64,000 bases of DNA from Myxocyprinus asiaticus. Taxonomy: Eukaryota; Chordata; Actinopteri; Cypriniformes; Catostomidae. Numbering within the stretch: the stretch's first letter is position 1; each line of letters starts with the position of its first letter. Shown here piece after piece: positions 5,194 through 46,054 of this stretch. Location: assembly GCF_019703515.2 (NCBI RefSeq), contig NC_059372.1, positions 28,473,931 to 28,537,930 of the forward strand, read 5' to 3'. The notes below the pieces were generated by a model. That model saw only the letters and a program-made list of their open reading frames with translations. It ran no database searches and was not told the DNA's origin. Made by a program: the position numbers and the translations under genes.

Positions 5194-6402
5194 GAACGCA
5201 CATACTGTGAATGTTTGTGTGCATGTTATTGTTCTCAGAAACTAGACTGACAAAGGTTGTGGGATCGATACCCAGGGAACACATGTACTGTGAATGTTCG
5301 AATGCATGTTAGTATGAAATAGCCAGATGGACAATGGTTTTGGGTTCAAGTCCCAGGTAACACACATACTGTGTGCATTTGTATGCATGTTATAGTACTC
5401 AATAGCTAGAGTGACCAATGTTGTGGTTTACATTCCCAGAGAACACACATTCTGTGCAATTTTGTGTGCATGTAAGTATGAAATAGCCAGACTGTCCAAG
5501 GTTGTGGGTTCGAGTCCCGGGTAACACACATACTGTGTGTTTGTATGCATGTTATAGTACTCAGTAGCTAGACTGACCAAGGTTGGGGGTTCGATTCCCA
5601 GAGAATACACATTCTGTGCAATTTTGTGTGCATGTTAGTACGAAATAGTCAGATTGACCAAGGTTGTGGGTTCGAGTCCCAGGTAACACATATAATGTGC
5701 ACGTTTGTAAGCATGTTATAGTACTTAATAGCCAGCCAGACAAAGGTTGAGGGTTTAATTCCCAAGGAAAACATATAATGTGAAAGTTTGTGTGCATGTT
5801 ATAGTTCTCAAAACCTAGACTGACCAAGGTTGTGGGATCAATACCCAGGGAACGCACATACTGTGAATGCTTGTGTGCATGTTAGTGCGAAATAGCCAGA
5901 CGGACAAAGGCTGTGGGTTCCAATCTCAGAGAACACACATACTGTGCAATTTTGTGTGCATGTTAGTACGAAATAGTCAGACTGACCAAGGTGTGGGTTC
6001 GAGTCCCAGGTAACACACATACTATGAATGTTTGTGCGAAATAGCCAGACGGACAAATTTTTTTTGGTTTGATTCCCAGGGCACACACGTACTGTGCATG
6101 TTGTAGTACTCAGTAGCTAGACTGACCAAGGCTGTGGGAATGATACCCAGGAAACACACATACTGTGAATGTTTGAGTGCATGTTAGTGCAAAATAGCCA
6201 GATGGACAAAGGTTGTGGGTTTAATTCCCAAGGAACACACATACTGTGAATGTTTGAGTGTATGTTAGTGCGAAATAGCAAGACGGACAAAGGTTGTGGG
6301 TTCGATTCCCAGAGAACATGCATACTGTGCAGTTTTGTATGCAGGTTACTACGAAATTGCCAGACTGACCAAGGTTGTGGGTTCGATTCCCAGGTAACAC
6401 TC
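5194..6402 (+). repeat. tRNA-half (B-box) tandem array, ~15 units
   Basis: Fifteen units spaced 70-85 bp, with B-box-like cores at about 5261, 5341, 5426, 5508, 5588, 5669, 5750, 5834, 5917, 5995, 6067, 6137, 6218, 6298 and 6380. The best match GGTTCGATTCCC / GGTTCGAGTCCC. Between cores lie segments of the type ACACATACTGTG, TTTGTGTGCATGTTA and ATAGCCAGACGGACAAAGG. Two unit subtypes alternate irregularly (GAAATAGCCAGA and ACTCAGTAGCTAGA). No clear A-box precedes the cores, so each unit resembles a tRNA 3' half rather than a complete tRNA gene. Minus-strand reading frames through it are periodic artefacts. Confidence 0.85.
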
Positions 6403-6409
6403 ATAGTAA

Positions 6410-13074: not shown

Positions 13075-13506
13075 TTAAAACAACCTGCCTAATATTGTGT
13101 AGGTCCCCCTCGTGCCGCCAAAACATTCTGAGATGATATTCTTCTCACCACAATTGTACAGAACGGTTATCTGAGTTACCATAGACTTTGTCAGTTCAGA
13201 CCAGTCTGGCCATTCTCTGTTGACCTCTCTCTCATCAACAAGACATTTCCGTCCACAGAACTGCCACTCACTGGATAATTTTTGTTTTTGGCACTCTTCT
13301 GAGTAAATTCTAGAGACTGTTGTGTGTGAAAATCCCAGGAGATCAGCAGTTACAGAAATTCTCAAACCAGCCCATCTGGTACCAACAATCATGCCACAGT
13401 CCAAATCACTGAGATCACATTTTTCCCCATTCTGATGGTTGATGTGAACATTAACTGAAGCTCCTGACCCATATCTGCATGATTTTATGCACTGCACTGC
13501 TGCCAC
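13075..13506 (-). pseudogene. Tc1-like transposase, N-terminal remnant
   Basis: Decayed N-terminal part of a Tc1/mariner-type transposase, the enzyme that binds terminal repeats and cuts and pastes the element. The frame shows the paired-like helix-turn-helix region (residues about 38-72, with GMIVGTRWAGL and ADLLGFSHTTVSRIY) and then the second DNA-binding block (GRKCLVDER), where the frame degenerates. The segment resembling VTQITVLYN is followed at once by sequence from the element's other end. The catalytic DDE domain is therefore deleted: about 143 residues against roughly 340 in an intact enzyme. The flanking GATCAGCCACAACATTAAAA near 13060 is the terminal region of a repeat I recognise from fish. 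Confidence 0.7.
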
Positions 13507-13536
13507 ACGATTGGCTGATTAGATAATCGCAAGGAT

Positions 13537-24606: not shown

Positions 24607-25590
24607 ATGAAGATAAAAGAGCATTCAAAACAAATGAGGGATATAATTGTGGATAAGCACAAATCTGGAGAGGATACAATGCCATTTCAAAAGCAGTAAA
24701 TATACCTTGGACCTCAGTTCAGTCCATCATACAGAAGTGGAAGAAATATGGAACTACAGCCACTCTGCCTAGGGCAGGTTGCGCACCCAAACTTAGTCAG
24801 GCAACAAGAATGGCACTTGTCAGAGAGGCTACTTCAAAACCAACCATCACTCTGACTGAGCTACAGAAGTCAGTGGCTGCGATTGGAAATAATGTCCATG
24901 GTTCAACAATCTCAAAACTATTGAATAAAAAGGGGCTGTACTGGAGAGTGGATAGGAAAAAGCCTTGGCTGTAGAAAATGCTCATGCTTACCCGTAAAGA
25001 CTTTGAAATACGTCACTTGGAAGATACCGCAAAGATGTGGCAGAATGTCTTGATGTCTGATAAGACTAAAGTGGAACTTTTTGGCTTGAACTCTAAACAG
25101 TATGTGTGGCGCAAAGCAAACACTGCACATCAGCCACATAACAACGTCATCACAGTGAAACACACTGGTAGTAGCATCATGATATGGGGGTACTTTTCAG
25201 CAGCAGGGACTGGCAATATTTTGAAGATTGATGGGATAGTGAATGCAACAAAATACACAGAGATTTTGGATAAGAACCTACTCCCCTCTGCCAGAAAGTA
25301 TAAAACTGGGAGGAAGTTTGTTTTTCAACAAGACAATGACCAAAAGCACAAAGCCAGAGCAACACTGGAGTGGCTAAAAATGAAGAACATTTATGTCCTT
25401 GAGTGGCCCAGTCAGAGTCCTGACCTCAACCTTTTTGGAAAATCTGTGGTGAGACCTCAAAATTGCTGTCCATTGCCATTCCCCAACTACCTTGTTACAG
25501 CTTGTGCAATTGAGCAAAGGAGGAATGGGCTAATATTGCTCCATCATATTGTGCAAAGTTGATAGAGACTTTACCAGAAAGATATTCAAG
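24607..25590 (+). pseudogene. Tc1-like transposase pseudogene
   Basis: Decayed Tc1/mariner transposase. The N-terminal helix-turn-helix region is readable from the first ATG (KEHSKQMRDIIVDKHKSG). A one-base frameshift follows near 24668, after which the second DNA-binding domain continues (SVQSIIQKWKKYG; LPRAGCAPKL). A TAG interrupts at about 24972. The catalytic domain (24978-25562) keeps the first Asp (VLMSDKTKVELFG) and the second (FQQDNDQKHKA), plus the WPSQSPDLN block. A frameshift just before the third acidic residue breaks the DDE triad. The C-terminus resumes in another frame (CAKLIETLPERYS) and stops at the junction with the LINE. No terminal repeats were found. Inactive. Confidence 0.85.
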
Positions 25591-35975: not shown

Positions 35976-35980
35976 GAATG

Positions 35981-36225
35981 TGTAAAGACTTGACATAGGG
36001 AGGGAAAGCAGGACACAGGGAACTGGATTCTTCAACTCAAAAACACAATCTCTTTCAGACAGGTAGCTCTCTCTCTCTCATCTCTGGCATGGTCCCTTTA
36101 TATTGCTCTCCTCAATGCTTACTGCAATTAGAAACAGGTGTTAGACATTATACGGCTCAGTTGTGTGCACCCTTACCGCTTTCTCTCTCTCCGGACGAAC
36201 GCTCGACCACGCCCCCGCTGCCACA
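35981..36225 (-). repeat. 3' LTR of Gmr1-like element
   Basis: Plus-strand TGTAAAGACTTGACATAGG to GCTGCCACA. Aligns with the LTR at 45734-46049 but lacks about 70 bp present there (the TTTAATAAACAAAC region). CT-rich centre. Target duplication GAATG on the outer side. Confidence 0.85.
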
Positions 36226-36469
36226 TATCCCCACCGCCCGACTCAGGCCGGGGAGACATCCGGTCTGTCTACCACTCCCCCCCCCCCCCCCATCTGCGCT
36301 CCCGGTCTGTGGACCACCTCGAACCTAAACGGCTGAAGAGCCAGATACCACCGGGTGATCCACGCATTGGTATCATTCATGCGGTGGAGCCATTGGAGTG
36401 GGGCGTGAACAGAGAGTGAAGGCCCGCCCCAGCTGGTAGTAGAGGAGAGTGAGGATGGCCCACATGATA
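36226..36469 (-). pseudogene. RNase H C-terminal part of Gmr1-like element
   Basis: Minus-strand translation gives WAILTLLYYQLGRAFTLCS, then (in shifted frames) the tail FEVVHRPG, typical of Ty3/gypsy RNase H ends. It continues the RNase H broken at 42328. A poly(G) tract (C run at 36279-36291) and a stop follow. A purine-rich GGGCGGTGGGG-type tract lies directly before the LTR, where a polypurine primer is expected. Direct adjacency of RNase H to the 3' LTR, with no integrase after it, supports the Gmr1-type domain order. Confidence 0.8.
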
Positions 36470-36614
36470 GTTGAACTGGTCGGCGTTTGAATGTCTTCTT
36501 TGTTTTTCATTTCGTTATGTTTTCCCCTAGAACTTTGTAATAAACATATATTTTGCAATCGTATTTATTTTGTGAGCGCCTTTTTTTGTTGCAGTTACGA
36601 GCCGAACTGTAACA
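36470..36614 (+). repeat. 5' LTR remnant of plus-strand gypsy element
   Basis: Matches the last ~143 bp of the 3' LTR (GTTGAACTGGTCGGCGTTTG to CGAACTGTAACA), including AATAAA-type sequence (GTAATAAACATAT). The first ~280 bp present in the 3' LTR are absent, so promoter sequences are lost. Confidence 0.8.
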
Positions 36615-36618
36615 AAAT

Positions 36619-36631
36619 TGGGGGCTCTTCC
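36619..36631 (+). promoter_or_regulatory. Primer-binding site, tRNA-Pro-like
   Basis: TGGGGGCTCTTCC four bases after the LTR end. It resembles the sequence complementary to the 3' end of tRNA-Pro (TGGGGGCTCGTCC) used by many retroelements, with one mismatch. Confidence 0.65.
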
Positions 36632-37299
36632 ATTTCAAAATTTGGTTAAGATTTATTTATTTTTTTGTTGAAATGTGTTAAACGCTGCAGTTGCACGCAC
36701 TGAATTTGATTCTTATTAGAATTACCTGGGTGCGCTCTGGTCTGTTTGTTAGCGCTCTCAGTTTGTAATTGCAAACTTTTGATTATTCGCTGCCTTATTT
36801 AACAAGTTTATCGTATTCTTTTGTTAAAAGGAGAGGAAATTTAGGTAATTTCATTGTGAGTTTGAATGTGAATTTATAATGTTTGAGTTAGTCTTGTTAG
36901 ATCGGTAACAAGAAGTGAGATCGCTTTATGCAGTGTTGTTTATTTTCTTGGCCGCAAGCATTTTAAATCGTTTATTGTAGTGAGGTTAGATGTTTGTTTT
37001 TCATAAAAGTTGTCTTTTCCCAAATATGTTGTAGCAACGCTTTTTGCGTTGACTTTTTTAATTTAGTTTGTTATTTTTGTGCTGATGCTGGGCTGAGGGC
37101 ACTGCCGCTGTACTGTAATTCTCTGGTTATCTGAGAGGTATTGGTGCTATCGGTATATAAGGGCTTGGTTTAAGCACGAAGTCTAGGGTTGAGTTAGAGT
37201 ATTTTTTTTTGTAGTGGGAAAAGACTCTGATTATGAGAAATTAGAATTCGTTTAATTAAACGAGGTTCGCGAAAGCTTTGTGGAAAAAATAAAATATAA

Positions 37300-39079
37300 A
37301 TGGCCTTAGAGTTAGAAGACTTTTTAAAACATCCTACTGAGGAGCAGTTAGACAAAATGTCTAAAGATCAGTTATTAGAGCAGCACACTTTGACATTGGA
37401 CTCACAGCTAAAGAAAAACCTCTAAAGGGGGGGTGTAGGACTTATTGTAAAATCAGCCTTGGCAGATTTGGGTGTGTTTACAACTAGGCCTGAGAAACCT
37501 GCTGTGTCTGAAGTTCAAGACCCTAAAGAGCAAGTTAATCCTCAAAAAAGTTTTCCTTCCTTAACTTATGAGCAACAGAGAGACTTTATGCTTTTAGAAA
37601 TGGAAAATAGTAAAATAAGTCAAGAAATTGAACTTCGTAAACTAGATATCAAAGCACAGAGACTGCAATTAATTAGAGAAGGTAAGCTAGAGGCTTGGTC
37701 TAAAATTGTGCAGTCACAAATGGATAACTCATTTTTGCAGGGTTTTGATGTTGCAAGAAGTCTTAATCTTTTGCCCAAGTTTAGTGAAGATGAGTTGGAC
37801 ACTTTCTTTAGACTATTTGAGCGTTTAGCAAATTTGAATGGATGGAAAGATAGTGAACGAACATTATTGTTGCAGTGTGTTCCAAGGTAAGGCTCAGAAG
37901 GCATATTCTACACTTAATGTGGCAGATAGTCAGGTCTATACGAAAGTGAAAGAAGTGGTATTGAAAGCATATGAACTAGTTCCTGAAGCATACAGACAAA
38001 AGTTTAGAGCTTTGTGTAAAGGAGGGCAACAATCTTTTTCTGTGTTTGCAAGTGTTGGGCCTCATGTATTCAGATAGAAGACAAAGGCAGGCCTAACACA
38101 GTCGTAAAAACCTAACTCAAGCCCCCACATTCCAAGTCGTAAATCTTACTGATAAAAATTGCGCCAAAATCAAACAAAGGGAGTCCAAAACAGACTACAA
38201 ATCCCATGAAGCCTTGCTCACTAAAGGATTGAACTCTCAACTCCTATTGGATGAGGCACACAACAGAACGTCCCTCAAACATGACATCATCAGGAGTTGA
38301 AATACCTCTAAAATGCTTTCGGTATTTGCTTCCAGCAACTTTGTTTGCAGCGTGTGGACGCAGCTCTTCGCTGCTCTCCGGTGCAACCTCGTGGCACAAG
38401 GAAGTAACGTCAGACTTGAAACTGTGGCCATACAATCTCCATCTCGCTGGACGAGTTGAGATTACTCTGTGTTCAACCGAACACTCTAACGGATCCGAAG
38501 GAGACCGCCGAGCAATTCGCATCTTCATCCATTTGCCTACAGAAGTGAAGCGATTAAAGATTTCTCTTCCATCTTCAATCAAGTCGACATTTCTGAGTTC
38601 TCCGCCAGCCCGCCGAGAATCAGCAGCTGTACCGCCCACAGACAGAGCGAGGAAACCGCCTCCCGTCATCACCCGAGCCTCAAGGAACCGGGTCAGAGTT
38701 AAAGGACGGAGGAAAACACATTCTACCTGTGTCCTCATGCGATTCAAGTAAGAGGTTTACATCTGGGCAGAGATAGAATATTATAGTGTGTTATTCTTGT
38801 GTTTCAAGGTTTTTGCTTGAAAAGTTTACGGACCGCCATGTCCGCTCATTATTAATACTCAGGGTATTAATTATCACAAATTTGTTTTGCTGTATTGTGG
38901 TCCAACCAAATTGGATTGTTGTGCAATTTCGCCATCGCGGGTGAGGCAGCAACTGAGTTCATCCATTAAAGAGTCAAATAATGCGGGACTTTTACAAGCC
39001 TTCCACCGCGTCTCTGAGTGATAAACTGACAGCTGTTTTCTCTCCCACTATCGCGAAATTGGCTTTAGGGCTGTCACTT

Positions 39080-39118
<39 letters not shown>

Positions 39119-40290
39119 TAACCACACACCCACACACATACACACACACACACACACCTTATGTGTTATAGGATTATTTTTTTATTCCCATATCTAATCA
39201 TATCACTGTTTAGTTTGTAGTTGTAAGTCGGAAGTTTATTGACTGCATTGTATTAATTATTAATTGATATTACTGCATAAATAAACTTTTGTTTATATTA
39301 CAAAGAGAAGTGTTTTGGTTTGTTTTGCATATGCCTGTGTCATGCTGACGGGATGTCAGTGCTTGGATTCAAACCTTCATTCATTGTTTTTTTTTCCCGA
39401 AAATCGATATTCTTCGGATGTCGATTTTCCTAAGAAAAAAAATCTAATATTGAGACTATTTGGTTATTAGTCCCTAATTCCAGGGTGGTGCCCCGTCAAT
39501 GTTAATCCTTATTAATATTCTATTGATTTTTGATAATTGATAATTATCTTTGATGATTGAATTTGAATGATCAATAAGCTAGTGTTAATTTTAATTAATG
39601 TTTCATCGATGTTAACAATTAACGATTATCTTTGATAATTGTTGATTTAAAGGATTTAAAAAGCTAACATTGATTCTCATCAATGTTCTATTGATTTTAA
39701 TAATTAATAATTATCTTTGATAATTATTAATTACTGCTAATAACCAAACTTGCTCCTAAACGTAGCACACTACATTACTGGAGCCCCATATGAGGTTTTA
39801 ATGAGTTAGATTCAATTGATTAATTTAAATATTAATTAATAACTACAGAAATAATTATTAATTAACACTGATCTAAACAACCAGTAAAGCCCTACACAAG
39901 AGATCTGCGTATTCAGTTTGATCAGTGGTGTTCCTCATCTCATGCAGATACCTATGAGGCTCTTTATGAATTGATGTTGTTGGAACAATTTAAGAATACC
40001 CTATCCGAAGATGTGGCTGTTTTTATAACAGAATGAAAAGTTAAAAAGGCGGAGGAGGCTTCCATTCTCACTGATGAGTACATTCTGACACACAAGGGTG
40101 AGGTTAGAAAAAATCATTGGCATTGTACAGACAATTTTTCAGAGAATGTTGAATCCTGTTCATTTCTGACTAGTGGTGTTAAGTCTGAGAGAAAACTAAA
40201 GTCCTCTGTTGATGAAAATGATCAGTGTGCTTATTGTCTTAAAAGAGGTCATTGGAAAAAAGATTGTCCTACTCTAAAAGCAAAAAATTC
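37300..40290 (+). pseudogene. gag of plus-strand gypsy element, interrupted
   Basis: The capsid polyprotein packages element RNA. An ATG at 37300 starts MALELEDFLKHPTEEQLDKM and soon meets a stop near 37422. The main capsid text follows in 37459-37890, with a helical Glu/Lys-rich part, the LPKFSEDELDTFFRLFERLA block and NGWKDSERTLLLQ. A frameshift lies near 37880. The next frame reads GKAQKAYSTLNV and LKAYELVPEAYRQKFR, family-typical blocks. A 1.84-kb solo LTR then interrupts (38053-39896), and capsid coding resumes (IQFDQWCSSSHADTYEAL; EQFKNTLSEDVAVFI) to a TGA near 40034. A zinc knuckle C-X2-C-X4-H-X4-C (CAYCLKRGHWKKDC) lies at about 40226-40270. Inactive. Confidence 0.85.
38053..39896 (+). 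mobile_element. 1.84-kb solo LTR inserted in gag
   Basis: Starts TGTTGGGC and ends GCCCTACA, flanked by CAAG (38049-38052, 39897-39900). The gag frame runs across the target site. AATAAA at 39280-39285 gives plus orientation. It contains (CT)n at about 39085-39114, an AC-rich run at 39119-39158 and three ~95-bp AT-rich units with ATTATCTTTGATAATT palindromes (39490-39735). Long overlapping frames at 38244-38751 on both strands lack family features. No internal genes, hence solo. The parent family (ERV or other LTR class) is not identified. Confidence 0.8.
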
Positions 40291-40923
40291 AGTCATGTCA
40301 ATCCTGAACCAAAATCAGCTTTGTTGGTGTCTTCAGTAGTGTCTGAGATTACCAATCTTCCTGATAATGGTGGTGAGTGTATGCTGGAACAAGAAAAAGC
40401 AGTTTTGTGTAATGAAAAACAAATGTATGCTCCATTCATTACAGATGGTTTTGTGTCTCTTGTTGGGGGTAGAAATAAAGTTCCTGTCAAAATTTTGAGG
40501 GATACGGGAGCCTCAGAGACATTTATTTTGGAGTCTGCTTTACCCTTTTCTGCTGAGTCAAGTACTGGTAAGGAGGTGCTGATAAAGGGAATTGGATTAC
40601 AAAATTTGTCTGTTCCATTACATACAGTAGTTCTTCAGTCAGAACTGGTTAGTGGTACAGTGTTTGTAGGGGTACGAACTTCACTGCCTGTACAGGGGAT
40701 TTCTGTTATCTTAGGTAATAATCTGGCTGGGGGTCATGTTTGGAGAGATGTACCACCACCACCAATTGTAACTGCTTCTCCTTCTTTAGAGAACCAAACT
40801 GTTGTTACACAATTTCCTGTTGTGTTTGTCTCTTGTGCAGTTACTCGTGCTATGAGCAAAAATAAGTCTGATGTTTTGCAGGATTTGGAGTCTCAGCCTG
40901 AAGATTCGTCAAAGATTATTTAA
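40252..40923 (+). pseudogene. Protease region of plus-strand gypsy element
   Basis: The retropepsin-type aspartic protease of the element matures Gag-Pol. The 223-codon frame begins within the zinc-knuckle tail. At residues about 64-100 it has the segment VSLVGG...VPVKILRDTGASETF, with the catalytic D-T-G triplet and the conserved Ala-Ser, followed by a hydrophobic flap-like stretch and ILGNNLAGGHVW, the second hydrophobic block. The downstream VTRAMSK segment is typical of fish gypsy pol linkers. It stops at 40921, where sequence from the middle of reverse transcriptase follows out of frame, marking a deletion. This domain itself looks open, but the element is dead. Confidence 0.8.
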
Positions 40924-40939
40924 AGAATTTAAAGAAATT

Positions 40940-41690
40940 GCATCGTTCATCACTTCATTTGGCCTATACTCTTTTTCTGTCATGAGTTTTGGCCTTAGAA
41001 ATGCACCTGCCACTTTCCAGCGCCTAATGAACCAGGTGACGCCCGGCTTATAGGGTTGTACTCTATACTTAGATGATGTTGTGGTCTGTAGTCAGACCTG
41101 GGAACAACATCTCTGCCGTGTCTGAGCTCTGTTCGAACATCTTGCTGAGGCTCGATTAACCATTAACCTGGCGAATTGTGAGATCGCCAGGGCAACGGTA
41201 ACCTATTTGGGCAAAATAGTTGGGCAAGGCATGGTGCGTCCTGTTCTGGCCATTGATAACTTCCCTCTACCAAGTTCTAAGCGGGAGTTAATGCGTTTTT
41301 TAGGCATAGTAGGATATTATAGGAGTTTTTGTCCAAACTTTTCATCAGTAGTAGCTCCTTTATCTGATTTGCTGAAAATGAAAGTACAATTTGAGTGGTC
41401 CTTACTATGCCAACAGGCATTTGAAAATGTTAAGAGGTTGCTTAGCACTGCATCTGTCCTGGCTGCCCCATGCTTTGGGTCACCTTTTCAGATCCAGGTG
41501 GATGCTAGCCAGGTTGGTGCTGGGGCTGTATTATTACAGACTGATGAAAATGGTGTAGACCATCCGGTCAGTTATTTCTCTCGTAAATTCAATTCTCATC
41601 AATTACATTATACAACAATTGAAAAGGAGACCTTAGCATTGATTTGGGCATTACATAATTTTGATGTAAATGATGTACCTTAAATGTTGC
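40940..41690 (+). pseudogene. Partial reverse transcriptase and RNase H
   Basis: Starts in the palm (SFGLYSFSVMSFGLRNAPATF, family block before the active site), with a stop (TAG near 41051). The catalytic LYLDDVVV motif lies at about 41067-41090. A further stop near 41124 precedes the thumb and connection (LTINLANCEIARATVTYLG; RELMRFLGIVGYYRSFCPNF). RNase H begins with QVDASQVGAGAVLL and reaches YTTIEKETLALIWAL. The upstream third of reverse transcriptase, the rest of RNase H and all of integrase are absent. It is adjacent to the protease frame through a deletion. Confidence 0.85.
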
Positions 41691-41905
41691 TTTTCTTAGG
41701 TGCCAAGAATTGCTTGAGAGGGAGATACCAAGTGTGAGATGGGAGAGATGACTCTGGCTGAGCACTGTGTTGGTGATGGGATTTAATTTAATTTGATAAA
41801 ACAGTGTTGTCATTTTAAAATGTTACATTTCTGACCTTTTTGAGAACAGGGTTAGTAAATGAGGTCCTTAGGTAAGGTCCTCCCTTTTTTTTTTATAAGG
41901 GGAGG

Positions 41906-42327
41906 TGTCACGGTCTTACCGTGTTATTTTCTTTGGTTTTGTTTTTCTTTTTGTCTGTTATCCGTCACTGTCTGTCTGTGATTGTGATATTGTGAACACC
42001 TGGTTTGGATGGGCTCTGGGTATTTAATTGCCTGTTTGTTATCCAATGGGGGGTTGGGGGGTTATTAGATGCTCTTTGTTCTTTTCTTGCGTTTTGCAGG
42101 AATGGGCAGGTGGCAAGTGCCCTTGGATTAGAACTCCTCTACCATCATGAGATCTTTGTTTGTCCCATCTACCTCGTGGCCATGGTTGAACTGGTCAGCG
42201 TTTGAATGTCTTCTTTGTTTTTAATTTTGTTATGTTTTCCCCTAGAACTTTGTAATAAATACATATTTTTAACTGTATTTATTTTGTGATCGCCTTTTTT
42301 GTTGCAGTTACGAGCCGAACTGTAACA
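41906..42327 (+). repeat. 3' LTR of plus-strand gypsy element
   Basis: TGTCACGGTC at the start and CGAACTGTAACA at the end, preceded by the purine tract AAGGGGAGG (41897-41905), a good polypurine primer. Contains AATAAA (42255-42260). The last ~143 bp match 36470-36614. Confidence 0.85.
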
Positions 42328-43230
42328 CAAGACACTCCTTTTCAATGGTGCTGTACTTAGTCTCCCTCAGCGAGAGCTTGAGACTAATGTACAGCACCGG
42401 GAGTTCCTCCCCCTCCACCACCTGTGAGAGCACCGCCCCCAGCCCTCTGTCTGAAGCGTCCATCTGTAGAATAGAAGGGAGAGAGAAATTGGGTGAATGT
42501 AAAAGCGGCCCACTGCAAAGTGCGGCTTTCACCTGCGTAAAAATGCCTGTTGACACTGCTCCGTCCACTGGACCGGGCCTGGAGCTTCTTTTTTAGTGAG
42601 ATCAGTCAGCAGGCTGGTGACGTCCGAATAATTAGGCACAAACCTTCTATAATAGCCAGCCAGCCCCAGGAACTGTCTCACCTCCTTTTTGGTCTTGGGT
42701 CTCAGACAGGTCGCAATTGCCGCTGTTTTGTTTATTTGGGGACGCACCTGCCCGTGGCCCAAGTGGAACCCCAGATACCGTACCTCCACTCGTCCAATTG
42801 TGCACTTCTTGGGGTTTGCCGTGAGTCCTGCCCATCGCAGCGACCTCAGAACCGCCCTCAGAACTTGCGCTGAAACATAGCCGGGGCTCCAAACAAACCA
42901 AACGGAAGTGTCACAAATTGGTGTAATCCAAACGGTGTGGAGAAGGCCGTTTTTTTTCACAGGATATTGGCATTAAGGGGATCTGCCAATAGCCCTTTGT
43001 CAAATCCAGTGTTGAATAAAAGCGAGCGGTGCCCAACCGATCGAGCAACTCATCAACATGAGTCATTGGGTATGCATCAAATTTAGACACTGCGTTGACT
43101 TTCCTAAAATCCACACAGAACTATACAGACCCATCACTCTTAGGCACTAGAACAACCGGGCTGGACCAATCGCTTGGAAAAAAATCTCCTGTGTTAGTTG
43201 ACCCAGGGTGTGGAGTTTTGCTCTAAGATC
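42328..43230 (-). pseudogene. Reverse transcriptase and start of RNase H (Gmr1-like)
   Basis: Minus-strand text: SDWSSPVVLVPKSDGSV then a TAG (near 43124), VDFRKVNAVSKFDAYPMTHV, the catalytic first Asp block FYSTLDLTKGYWQIPL, a frameshift, then FGLFGAPA-type text. About 45 codons are then missing, including the YxDD active-site motif, since the sequence jumps to AVLRSLRWAGLTANPKKC near 42850. Thumb (FLGLAGYYRRFVPNYS) and RNase H start (LQMDASDRGLGAVLSQ; STIEKECL) follow and end at the gypsy insertion. It begins directly after the integrase tail, which places IN upstream of RT. Confidence 0.85.
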
Positions 43231-43950
43231 AAGAATGTATGAATTTAGCTTTTACTGTTTGAAGGTCCCTCCTCCCAAGTTTCCCGTATGATGTTGAGCA
43301 TGCTGCGCGGGTGCCACCCATACAGCAGCTCAAACGGGGTAAACCCTGTGGAGGCTTGCGGGACCTCTCGCACTGCAAACAACAGGGGTTCGAGCCATTT
43401 ATCCCAATTTCTAGCATCCTCGTGTACGAACTTACAAATCATATTTTTCAGGGTTTTATTAAATCACTCCACCAACCCATCTGTTTGCAGATGGTAAACA
43501 CTGGTGCAAATCAATTTAATTCCCAATAATTCGTAGAGTTCGCGGAGTGTCCGTGACATAAATGTAGTGCCTAGATCAGTGAGGATTTTTTTCGGAATTC
43601 CCACTCGGGAGATTATTTTGAAGAGTGCCTACGCAACACTGTGTGCTGAGATGTTGCGCAGAGGCACTGCTTCTGGATATCGCATTGCATAGTCCACCAG
43701 AACTAGGACAAAGCGATGTCCGCATGCTGACCACTCTAATGGCCCGATGAGGTCCATGCCAATTCCTTCGAAGGGGACCTCGATTAGCGGAAGGGGGTGC
43801 AACGGCGCTCTTGGTGTAGCCAGTGGATTCAACAGCTGACATTATCGGCATGCCGCACACCACCTGCGAACATCCCCGCGAATGCCCGGCCAATAAAAAT
43901 GGGCCATTAGTCGGTTCAGTGTTTTCCTCTGCCCTAAGTGACCCGCCATC
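43229..43950 (-). pseudogene. Integrase of Gmr1-like element
   Basis: The integrase inserts element cDNA. Minus-strand order: HHCC zinc-binding region (HLGQRKTLNRLMAHFYWPG, then CAAC-R-stop-C near 43855), the core start with its first Asp (GIGMDLIGPLEWSACGHRF) and second Asp (VLVLVDYAMRYPEAVPL), then after frameshifts the later core (ICKFVHEDARNWDKWLEPLLF; TGFTPFELLYGWHP). The C-terminal tail is ILDLRAKLHTLGQLTQE, and the reverse transcriptase text starts within about 15 codons. The glutamate region of the DDE triad (about 43450-43560) is poorly preserved. Stops and frameshifts make it inactive. Confidence 0.85.
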
Positions 43951-44354
43951 AGTTTTTTAATGAGCCGCCTGGAATAACATTTCCCGGCGGCTCTGCGGTA
44001 TTAACAGCTAAGTTGTATCCTCTTTTGTTTGAGCGTCCTGCGTCACTCGAAACAACCGCTATTTCATTATAGCAAAATAGGGATATGAAAGTGCGATGAT
44101 TGGTTGGAGTCGTTGACCATCAATAACTTTCACTTGGTCAAGGGCATGCCTAAGGCTTTCATCTCTCGACTGCTCTAGAGGCAGGGAAGGGGGTCGAAGC
44201 CTCCCCCTCCCTCACATCATCCTGACGTGGAGCTGACGAAGATGGCCCCGGCTCCGCCTCCCCTGCAAAAGCATCGCACATTTCACATTTAGCAGCTTTC
44301 TTGCAGGACACATCCGCACATATTCCCTTTAATACATTTTTAAACTCTGGCCAA

Positions 44355-44850
44355 TTAGTTCCCAGAATTAGTGGATGGGTGAAGCGGGAAATAACCGCCG
44401 CCTCCACTCCACTTTTTTCCCCCGAAATTTAATAAGTGGGTCACTACATGGTGGTTGTGAATATCCCCATGCACACACTTCACCGTCACCCTTTTGTTTG
44501 TGCCCAAAGCCTCGTGTTGAACCAAACATTGGTGGATAGTGGTCTGGTTACAGCCCGTATCTACCAAGGCTTGATGTGTACTCCCCTTGACACTCCGTGC
44601 TCTCCCCTGTACTCCCCTCTGTACACTCCGGCTCGATCGGGAGAAGCCCATGGAGTGTCGGGGATCTGGACTACAGTTCCCAGCTCCATCATGGGGCATT
44701 GATCCCGGAAGTGTCCCGGATCCCCGCAACTCCAGCAGGCTGGCCCAGGCATTATGCCCGCACCTGTGTCGGTGGGTACATCCACCTGAGGGGGAGAGCA
44801 ATGAAGTAATGAAGTCCCCGGGGGGGGGGGACTTCATTACAAACAACCAC
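44355..44850 (-). pseudogene. CCHC knuckle and protease of Gmr1-like element
   Basis: Minus-strand text reads CWSCGDPGHFRDQCPMM, a C-X2-C-X4-H-X4-C RNA-binding knuckle (about 44696-44737). After about 50 codons, in a shifted frame, comes HQALVDTGCNQTTIHQ, with the D-T-G catalytic triplet of a retropepsin (about 44530-44570), then VTVKCVHGD. The section 43950-44355 continues pol linker text of uncertain function (ISRFTHPLILGTNWPEFK is family-like). Confidence 0.75.
44806..44840. other. 14-bp perfect hairpin with G7 loop
   Basis: GTAATGAAGTCCCC and GGGGACTTCATTAC flank seven Gs, within the gag section of the Gmr1-like element just 5' of the zinc knuckle. It may be a small insertion or a replication-slippage product. 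Confidence 0.8.
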
Positions 44851-44937
44851 GAATGGGGAACCGGCTTCGTTGGTGGGATTCCATGTCTCCGGGGTACTGG
44901 GATGGGCTGTTGTGAGAGAGCAGAGTGGGGAGGGGGG

Positions 44938-45714
44938 TCAAGAGAGCAGGGAAAACACAGGGGGAGGGGAGAGAGAGTGGGAGGGCTCTTCCGCCCTCTG
45001 GTATGCCGACAGATGGTCCTCTGCCAGTTGGACGGCCTCCTCCAGCGATGCCGGGCAGTGGCAATGGACCCATTCCGCCGTTCCTTTTGGTAGCCAACAG
45101 ATCAGCTGCTCCAGAACCACTTGGTCGATAACTCCCTCGGCGTCGCGGCCCTCCGCCAGTAGCTACTTCTGGCAGGCATCCTGGAGCCATTGAGTGAAGG
45201 CAAACGGTCGGCCGACCCCTTCCAACTTCATTGACCAGAAGAGCTGTCAGTACTGCTCCGGGCTGCGGCCGACCCGCTGCAAGATGGTCTTCCTCAGATC
45301 ATCGTAGACCAGGAGACTTGCCGCTGGCAGTTGTTGTGCCGTGAGTTGCGCTTCCCCGGACAACAAGGGAATGAGTCTGGCCACCCACTGAGCATGCGGC
45401 CAGCCCCAGATCTTGGCTGTCCGCTTGAATAGATCCAGGAAGGCGTCTGGATCATCTTCTGCCCCCATCTTCATGAGAGCGGCTGGGGGAATGGGGGCTG
45501 CTGTGTCCGGGTTCAGGGTCGGGGCTTTCTCCTGGCTTAGTAGGCTCCGGATTGCATGCTGATCCTCTGCTTGAGCTCTGAGCACCTCATGGAAGCGGCA
45601 ATCTTGGTCCTGACATAGCTCAAGCATGCCTGATGATGGGTGTGTTGCAGACTGGTGAGGGACTTGAGAACTTCCACCAACTGCGAGGACTCCATGATGG
45701 CGTACTTCCTCCAA
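44938..45714 (-). pseudogene. gag of Gmr1-like element with SCAN-like segment
   Basis: Minus-strand capsid gene. The first section (45714-45247) has a coiled, Gln/Glu-rich N-terminus, then DDPDAFLDLFKRTAKIWGWP and WVARLIPLLSGEAQLTAQQL, and DDLRKTILQRVGRSPEQY, the capsid alpha-helical blocks. A stop follows. In the next open section (45120-44938) the text EQLICWLPKGTAEWVHCHCP and EEAVQLAEDHLSAY has the helix pattern of the SCAN dimerisation domain, which is known to descend from the capsid C-terminus of Gmr1-like elements. Broken by at least two stops. The start at 45714 lies about 20 bp inside the LTR/primer region. Confidence 0.8.
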
Positions 45715-45715
45715 T

Positions 45716-45733
45716 TCTCCCGGGTTTCGGTAG
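45716..45733 (-). promoter_or_regulatory. Primer-binding-site-like sequence
   Basis: Minus strand directly after the 5' LTR: CTACCGAAACCCGGGAGA. The CGAAACCCGGGA core fits the 3' arm of a tRNA (GCCGAAACCCGGGA type, preceded by TGGT in the standard form). The first bases deviate. Confidence 0.5.
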
Positions 45734-46049
45734 TGTAAAGACTTGACGTAGGGTGGGAAAGGAGGACACAGGGAACTGGATTCTTCAACTCAATGGTGTA
45801 GCTTTAATAAACAAACAAAATGGGATTTTCAGCACAAATATCTTTAGCTAACACAACACAGTCTCTTTCAGAGGGGTTCTCTCTCTCTCTCTCTCTCTCT
45901 CTGGTCTCTGGTGTGGTCCCTTTATATCGCTCTCCCCAATGCTTACTCCAATTAGAAACAGGTCTTAGACATTATAAGGCTCAGGTGTGTGCACCCTTAC
46001 CACTTTCTCTCTCTCCGGACGAACGCTCGACCATGCCCCCACCACCACA
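45734..46049 (-). repeat. 5' LTR of Gmr1-like element
   Basis: Plus-strand TGTAAAGACTTGACGTAGG to CCACCACCACA, 316 bp, with a (CT)n run (45888-45902). Outer flank GAATG (46050-46054) repeats 35976-35980. Confidence 0.85.
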
Positions 46050-46054
46050 GAATG

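Follow-up and report, generated by a model that had tools for sequence, protein, structure and literature searches.

A decayed Ty3/gypsy element of Gmr1-like architecture, with integrase encoded upstream of reverse transcriptase, in the genome of Myxocyprinus asiaticus

A Ty3/gypsy retrotransposon on Myxocyprinus asiaticus contig NC_059372.1 encodes its integrase (IN) upstream of its reverse transcriptase (RT), and this order is a trait of the family to which the element belongs. The element lies on the minus strand and spans 46049 to 35981 of the window, by which we mean the whole 64,000-nucleotide stretch of DNA that was analysed, with GAATG at both ends. We are confident that it is a dead member of a Ty3/gypsy family that has many copies and a Gmr1-like architecture; the copy in the window is probably inactive. 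It has lost sequence at two places in its coding region and is interrupted by a second Ty3/gypsy element, which itself carries a further insert. We refer to the two as the outer and the nested element.

Anatomy of the outer element

The outer element is framed by a pair of long terminal repeats (LTRs) in direct orientation, delimited by LTR comparison: a 5' LTR of 316 bp (45734..46049, minus strand) and a 3' LTR of 245 bp with internal losses (35981..36225, minus strand). They differ at 22 of 244 aligned bases, plus gaps, in an alignment that extends 2 bases beyond the 3' LTR. Directly outside each end, the target-site duplication GAATG was read on the right (46050..46054) and on the left (35976..35980). 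A single LTR pair and a single 5-bp duplication thus enclose everything, which is most simply explained by one insertion. The initial annotation had reported pairing LTRs with a perfect GAATG duplication and had argued for one insertion rather than two juxtaposed ones, and both statements are upheld. A purine-rich tract precedes the 3' LTR. The primer-binding site behind the 5' LTR is damaged (45716..45733, minus strand, extent inferred); a primer site starting with TGG stands directly behind the 5' LTR in 5 of the 7 other copies printed (L045, L046, L048, L049 and L050). The outer element therefore has the LTR pair, the short (4-6 bp) duplication and the polypurine tract of Ty3/gypsy elements, together with a primer site in damaged form.

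Pfam searches of stop-free pieces and a six-frame scan, the latter using profiles built from IN-first relatives, gave the same minus-strand order of LTR, SCAN-type gag, CCHC, protease, IN, RT, RNase H (RH) and LTR, in agreement with the order initially proposed from the letters. Seven of the 16 outer-element pieces given to Pfam matched no family at E 0.1. All features that follow are on the minus strand. The gag region (44941..45733) is broken by stops and contains a SCAN-type domain at about 44998-45153 (PF02023, 5e-10, 39.5 bits against a cut-off of 27). It is followed by a CCHC zinc knuckle (44693..44740; PF00098, 24.5 bits against a cut-off of 20.8) and by an aspartic protease (44412..44594), recognized from a DTG motif seen by eye and a weak match to PF13975 (E 0.0012; 19.8 bits, under the cut-off of 28.2). 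The H2C2 zinc-binding domain of the integrase (43833..43961) was found by PF17921 (6.8e-13) and by the profile scan, and the integrase core (43275..43799) by the profile from IN-first relatives (8.6e-64) and a weak rve fragment (22.3 bits, under the Pfam cut-off of 32.6).

The RT consists of frameshifted pieces (42757..43183), located by Pfam RVT_1, the profile scan and copy mapping. Its two RVT_1 pieces score 20.3 and 22.1 bits, both under the cut-off of 29.6, and the RT profile matches at 42935-43183, 42852-43046 and 42757-42897 (9.2e-27). RH lies in two parts. The first (42328..42559) was found by PF17919, RT_RNaseH_2 (1.2e-20), and by the profile scan; the last part, together with the polypurine tract before the 3' LTR, occupies 36226..36463 (Pfam, profiles and copy mapping). 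The RH profile matches at 42236-42559 and 36324-36416 (4.7e-21), and the Pfam match to the RH tail spans 36246-36506 with 15.5 bits, under its cut-off of 24.8. The profile match at 42236-42559 runs on into an LTR of the nested element.

A protease-IN-RT order would also fit membership in Ty1/copia. This candidate was rejected: the matches are to RVT_1, RT_RNaseH_2 and H2C2, and Ty3-type RT, RH and H2C2 integrase are all present in the outer element. RVT_2, which is the RT family of copia, was not among the Pfam matches of the pieces searched.

Losses and nested insertions in the window copy

The integrase tail had been placed only about 15 codons from the first RT block. This spacing turned out to be the product of a deletion, as all 11 copies in which the distance could be measured are longer there, by 506-568 bp in 10 of them and by 316 bp in L045. 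The same 11 copies rule out a genuinely compact IN-RT fusion. The deletion junction falls at 43172..43174 (minus strand), where 3 bp are common to both matched parts; most rows of the own-genome search likewise show a 3-base overlap between the two parts of the query, the pattern that a deletion between short repeats should leave. Proteins of relatives lead to the same result. In 120 of 120 listed long relatives, the IN piece and the second RT piece are 236-273 residues apart, as compared to 42 codons here, and IN and the first RT piece, where that piece was matched (n=11), are 204-226 residues apart, as compared to 8 codons here.

A second loss lies within RT near 42862-42869. The parts that flank it are 5 bp apart in the window and 91-102 bp apart in 8 of 9 measurable copies. 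The window copy also leaves positions 110-139 of the RT profile without a match. In the ninth copy, L042, the same parts are 14 bp apart, and that copy has a loss of its own in RT. By coordinates, the outer element has 4,205 bp of its own sequence (10,069 minus 5,864), as compared to 4,769 bp in L044. The copy is therefore short, as had been stated, but its small size results from the losses between IN and RT and within RT.

RH does not run directly into the polypurine tract and 3' LTR, as had been supposed, but is cut by the nested Ty3/gypsy element, which occupies 5,864 bp of the plus strand (36464..42327; LTRs, Pfam and profile scan). An RH that abuts the LTR is thereby ruled out. In 9 of the 12 other copies mapped, the two RH parts are 1-9 bp apart, and the remaining 3 are without one or both parts. 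The apparent tight junction and the apparent continuity from RNase H to LTR are thus accounted for by a deletion and by a nested insertion that had been overlooked.

The nested element belongs to the same superfamily and has the same enzymes as the outer one, but it keeps a partial RT and RH and is without an IN match in the profile scan of the interval. Of its 5' LTR only the last part is present (about 36464-36617, plus strand, by LTR comparison), and its 3' LTR of about 422 bp (about 41906-42327, plus strand) has a start inferred from a TG after a purine run. The profile scan located a partial or shortened RT (40886-41224, plus strand) and an RH (41396-41677, plus strand). Its gag and CCHC were recognized by eye only, and its protease match is weak. 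One match to the nested element comes from a named fish. Within this element lies an insert of 1,844 bp (38053..39896), read directly, that has TG...CA ends (TGTTGGGC...GCCCTACA) and CAAG on either side, and that we take for a putative solo LTR or other LTR-derived insert. Divergence between LTRs (K80) is 0.097 for the outer element over 244 bases and 0.078 for the nested element over 150 bases, values that are in line with the nesting order and too close to prove it.

Domain order in other copies and in relatives

The 2.34 Gb genome (345 contigs) was searched with a 961-base IN-to-RT query from the window. Besides the window itself, 39 places were scored as matches from 7416 first-look candidates. 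Among these 40 places, the window is the sole one-piece match. An RT match follows on the same strand, 140-565 bp downstream of IN, in 30 of the 39 other scored copies; no RT part was reported in the other 9, and in this search an RT match upstream of IN occurred in none of the 39. Twelve copies (L042-L053, larger stretches chosen near the top of the list, with L013-L041 left out) were mapped, and in all 12 the parts that remain follow one collinear order, from LTR through gag, CCHC/protease, IN, RT and RH to LTR. The profile scan read IN then RT in 11 of the 12 and IN then RH in L046. L047 has an additional RT match upstream of IN (2344-2840 in the profile scan), probably from another element. 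Antisense gag and LTR pieces lie near L052. The five-base flanks agree at 5 of 5 positions in L049, at 5 of 5 in L046 (with the LTR start extrapolated) and at 4 of 5 in L044. Both the 39 and the 12 copies were found by the IN-RT query, so copies without these parts were missed. It had been proposed that copies of standard order would overturn the reading of the window; none came to light among these copies, and the IN-first order is common to the family.

Loci of standard order were recovered by the same profiles. The controls L002, L054, L055, L057 and L059 read RT-RH-IN, which indicates that the method does not impose an IN-first order. The last four are Ty3/gypsy elements of standard order from this genome that share superfamily and enzymes with the outer element, but differ from it in order. 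Among the eight best rve loci of the genome (L004-L011), L007, which coincides with L054, reads RT-RH-H2C2-IN; in L004 and L008-L011, RH lies upstream of IN, and in L005 and L006 IN stands alone in the stretch examined. In L056 and L058, RH precedes IN and RT has no match, and for this reason the two were not used as standard-order rows in trees.

Relatives were also found outside this genome. In a protein search, the IN piece matched 31 proteins, each 51-124 residues long. L001, a contig that was assigned to a bacterial metagenome-assembled genome but is probably host DNA, carries an open gag-pol frame of 1,476 residues in the order CCHC, H2C2, rve, RVT_1 and RH, with a SCAN match of 19.7 bits, under the cut-off of 27. 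In another locus, L003, the listed frames look bacterial. When the IN-RT stretch of L001 was used as query, 7,981 candidates were scored and 3,309 proteins matched; the analysis covered the best 120 as listed. Many of the named proteins among these best 120 of 3,309 are from molluscs and echinoderms. IN lies wholly before RT in 119 of the 120 best-listed long proteins, a set biased toward IN-first proteins because the query spanned IN to RT; the remaining one, the newt protein P0036, has IN matches on either side of RT. The IN-first gag-pol proteins (L001/P0032, Argopecten, Pecten, Crassostrea and Patiria) have the same domain order as the outer element, with piecewise identities of 35-71% for IN pieces and 38-93% for RT/RH pieces, where the highest values come from short matches. 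No relative was found in viral contigs, by scan with the IN piece and alignment, nor in phage or plasmid records.

Gmr1-like identity and the origin of the order

The Gmr1-like group of elements was reportedly first described in 2002. PMC8220671 and PMC3587641 place IN upstream of RT in these elements, and a 2009 paper (PMC2774666) codes the same order; the SCAN domain is described as derived from the gag of a Gmr1-like element in PMC3424704. Reported hosts of the group include Atlantic cod, Ciona, gilt-head bream (Saugg1), annelids, crustaceans, frogs and pufferfish-group fishes (PMC8220671, PMC3587641, PMC4131045, PMC11117352), with Gmr or Gmr1 families in the last two hosts (PMC4131045 for frogs, PMC11117352 for pufferfish-group fishes), and Gmr1 is listed among clades found in several phyla (PMC8556966). 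The IN-first domain order is thus already in print, and the kind of element is known. The outer element shares with Gmr1-like elements an IN between protease and RT, the SCAN-type gag, LTRs and a short target duplication; the window copy is unlike them in being without the stretch from IN core to RT and part of RT, and in being split by the nested element. The initial assignment to the pol order of Gmr1-like elements therefore stands, for the window as well as for the family copies. It is its architecture and its SCAN-type gag that make the family Gmr1-like; no named Gmr1 sequence was among the matches or tree rows.

The rows of the trees included 20 (first set) and 12 (second set, with L055 left out) of the 120 long proteins. 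The window RT, which fills 46% of alignment columns, groups with its own family with support of 100/99 in both sets, and the joined IN+RT of the window does so with 96/91 in the second set; in the IN trees, the window IN also lies with copies of the same family. A chimera, for which the initial annotation had suggested separate placement of IN and RT as the sign, is accordingly contradicted at the family level. The trees warn of long branches. In both IN trees, which are rooted on the very long L002, one branch (97/97, 98/99) separates the family from all rows except L002 and places the remaining IN-first proteins together with rows of standard order. This branch speaks against a single IN-first clade, if the root and the long branches are trusted. 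A forced single IN-first clade was not rejected by the AU test in any of the 5 trees, nor did it receive positive support (p 0.376 and 0.465 in the first set; 0.30, 0.515 and 0.461 in the second).

Two other accounts of the order have to be weighed against an IN-first family of Gmr1-like architecture. One holds that IN came to lie before RT by chance, when a Ty3 element of standard order was rearranged afterwards or received another insertion. The window does contain pieces of two Ty3 elements, and the copy is rearranged, with two losses and a nested element. The order is nevertheless common to all 12 mapped copies, for the parts present, and to 30 of 39 other scored copies, and one LTR pair with its duplication surrounds every part, so that a juxtaposition of two elements is refuted by the other copies and we regard any such history as highly improbable. 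The other account is convergence, in which an IN-first lineage gained its order independently of the Gmr1 clade and is Gmr1-like in order only. This would fit the IN trees, where mollusc and echinoderm proteins group with standard-order rows, and the family joins these IN-first proteins with support in none of the 5 trees. Long branches, few standard-order rows and the root on L002 can explain the missing support, the single clade was not rejected in any tree (p 0.30-0.515), and in the IN tree of the second set the tree constrained to hold IN-first proteins together outscored the free tree. The gag, moreover, has the SCAN-type domain described for Gmr1-like elements in PMC3424704. We consider convergence very unlikely, and see equally little reason to favour the broader proposal that IN-before-RT arose more than once in Ty3/gypsy, in this family independently of the IN-first elements of molluscs and echinoderms.

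On the preferred reading of an IN-first, Gmr1-like family, general knowledge of LTR retrotransposons suggests how working relatives may multiply. The element would be copied through RNA, which gag, SCAN-like in its later part, would package; a tRNA-type primer would start reverse transcription just behind the 5' LTR, RT and RH would make the DNA, and IN, encoded between protease and RT, would insert it with a 5-bp target duplication. The window copy has accumulated stops and frameshifts, and it is short of about 550 bp between IN and RT and of about 90-100 bp within RT, losses that presumably followed rather than preceded its insertion. Another Ty3 element interrupted its RNase H, and that element in turn received the further insert.

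These results caution against taking a tight IN-RT junction for an architectural trait when it is seen in a single decayed copy. The window also provides a clean case of nested insertions with a readable order, and the outer element documents a multicopy Gmr1-like family in the large genome of Myxocyprinus asiaticus.

A nested Ty3/gypsy element and its insert

Within the RNase H of the decayed Gmr1-like element lies a second Ty3/gypsy element, on the plus strand at window positions 36464-42327, in which the 5' LTR is truncated and the reverse transcriptase (RT) shortened, and in which no match to integrase (IN) was found. Among the best 120 of its 675 protein matches, one is named (Lucifuga dentata, a fish) and the remaining ones are unnamed or listed as "hypothetical protein". 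The nested element itself carries an insert of 1,844 bp (38053-39896) that has the termini TGTTGGGC...GCCCTACA and is flanked on both left and right by CAAG. Inside this insert, an 85-bp tandem repeat occupies 39502-39732.

Other repeats in the window

A tandem array of about 15 copies of an 81-bp unit occupies 5194-6405; the unit includes a tRNA B box-like stretch. Neither ARAGORN nor Rfam, the latter at its gathering threshold, returned a match across the whole window. Segments 24975-25559 (+) and 13078-13518 (-) may be pieces of Tc1/mariner-type transposases, with a DDE_3 match (9.5e-05) below the cut-off and a weak HTH_23 match (0.006).

Related elements elsewhere

L047, a copy of the Gmr1-like family in the same genome, has a second RT match (2344-2840, +) 5' of its own protease and IN; it also keeps the expected RT downstream, and the extra match is perhaps a remnant of another element. 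The L001 contig is filed under a Candidatus Thiodubiliella metagenome-assembled genome. Because its long open IN-first gag-pol frame most resembles animal proteins, L001 is probably host DNA within the bacterial bin.
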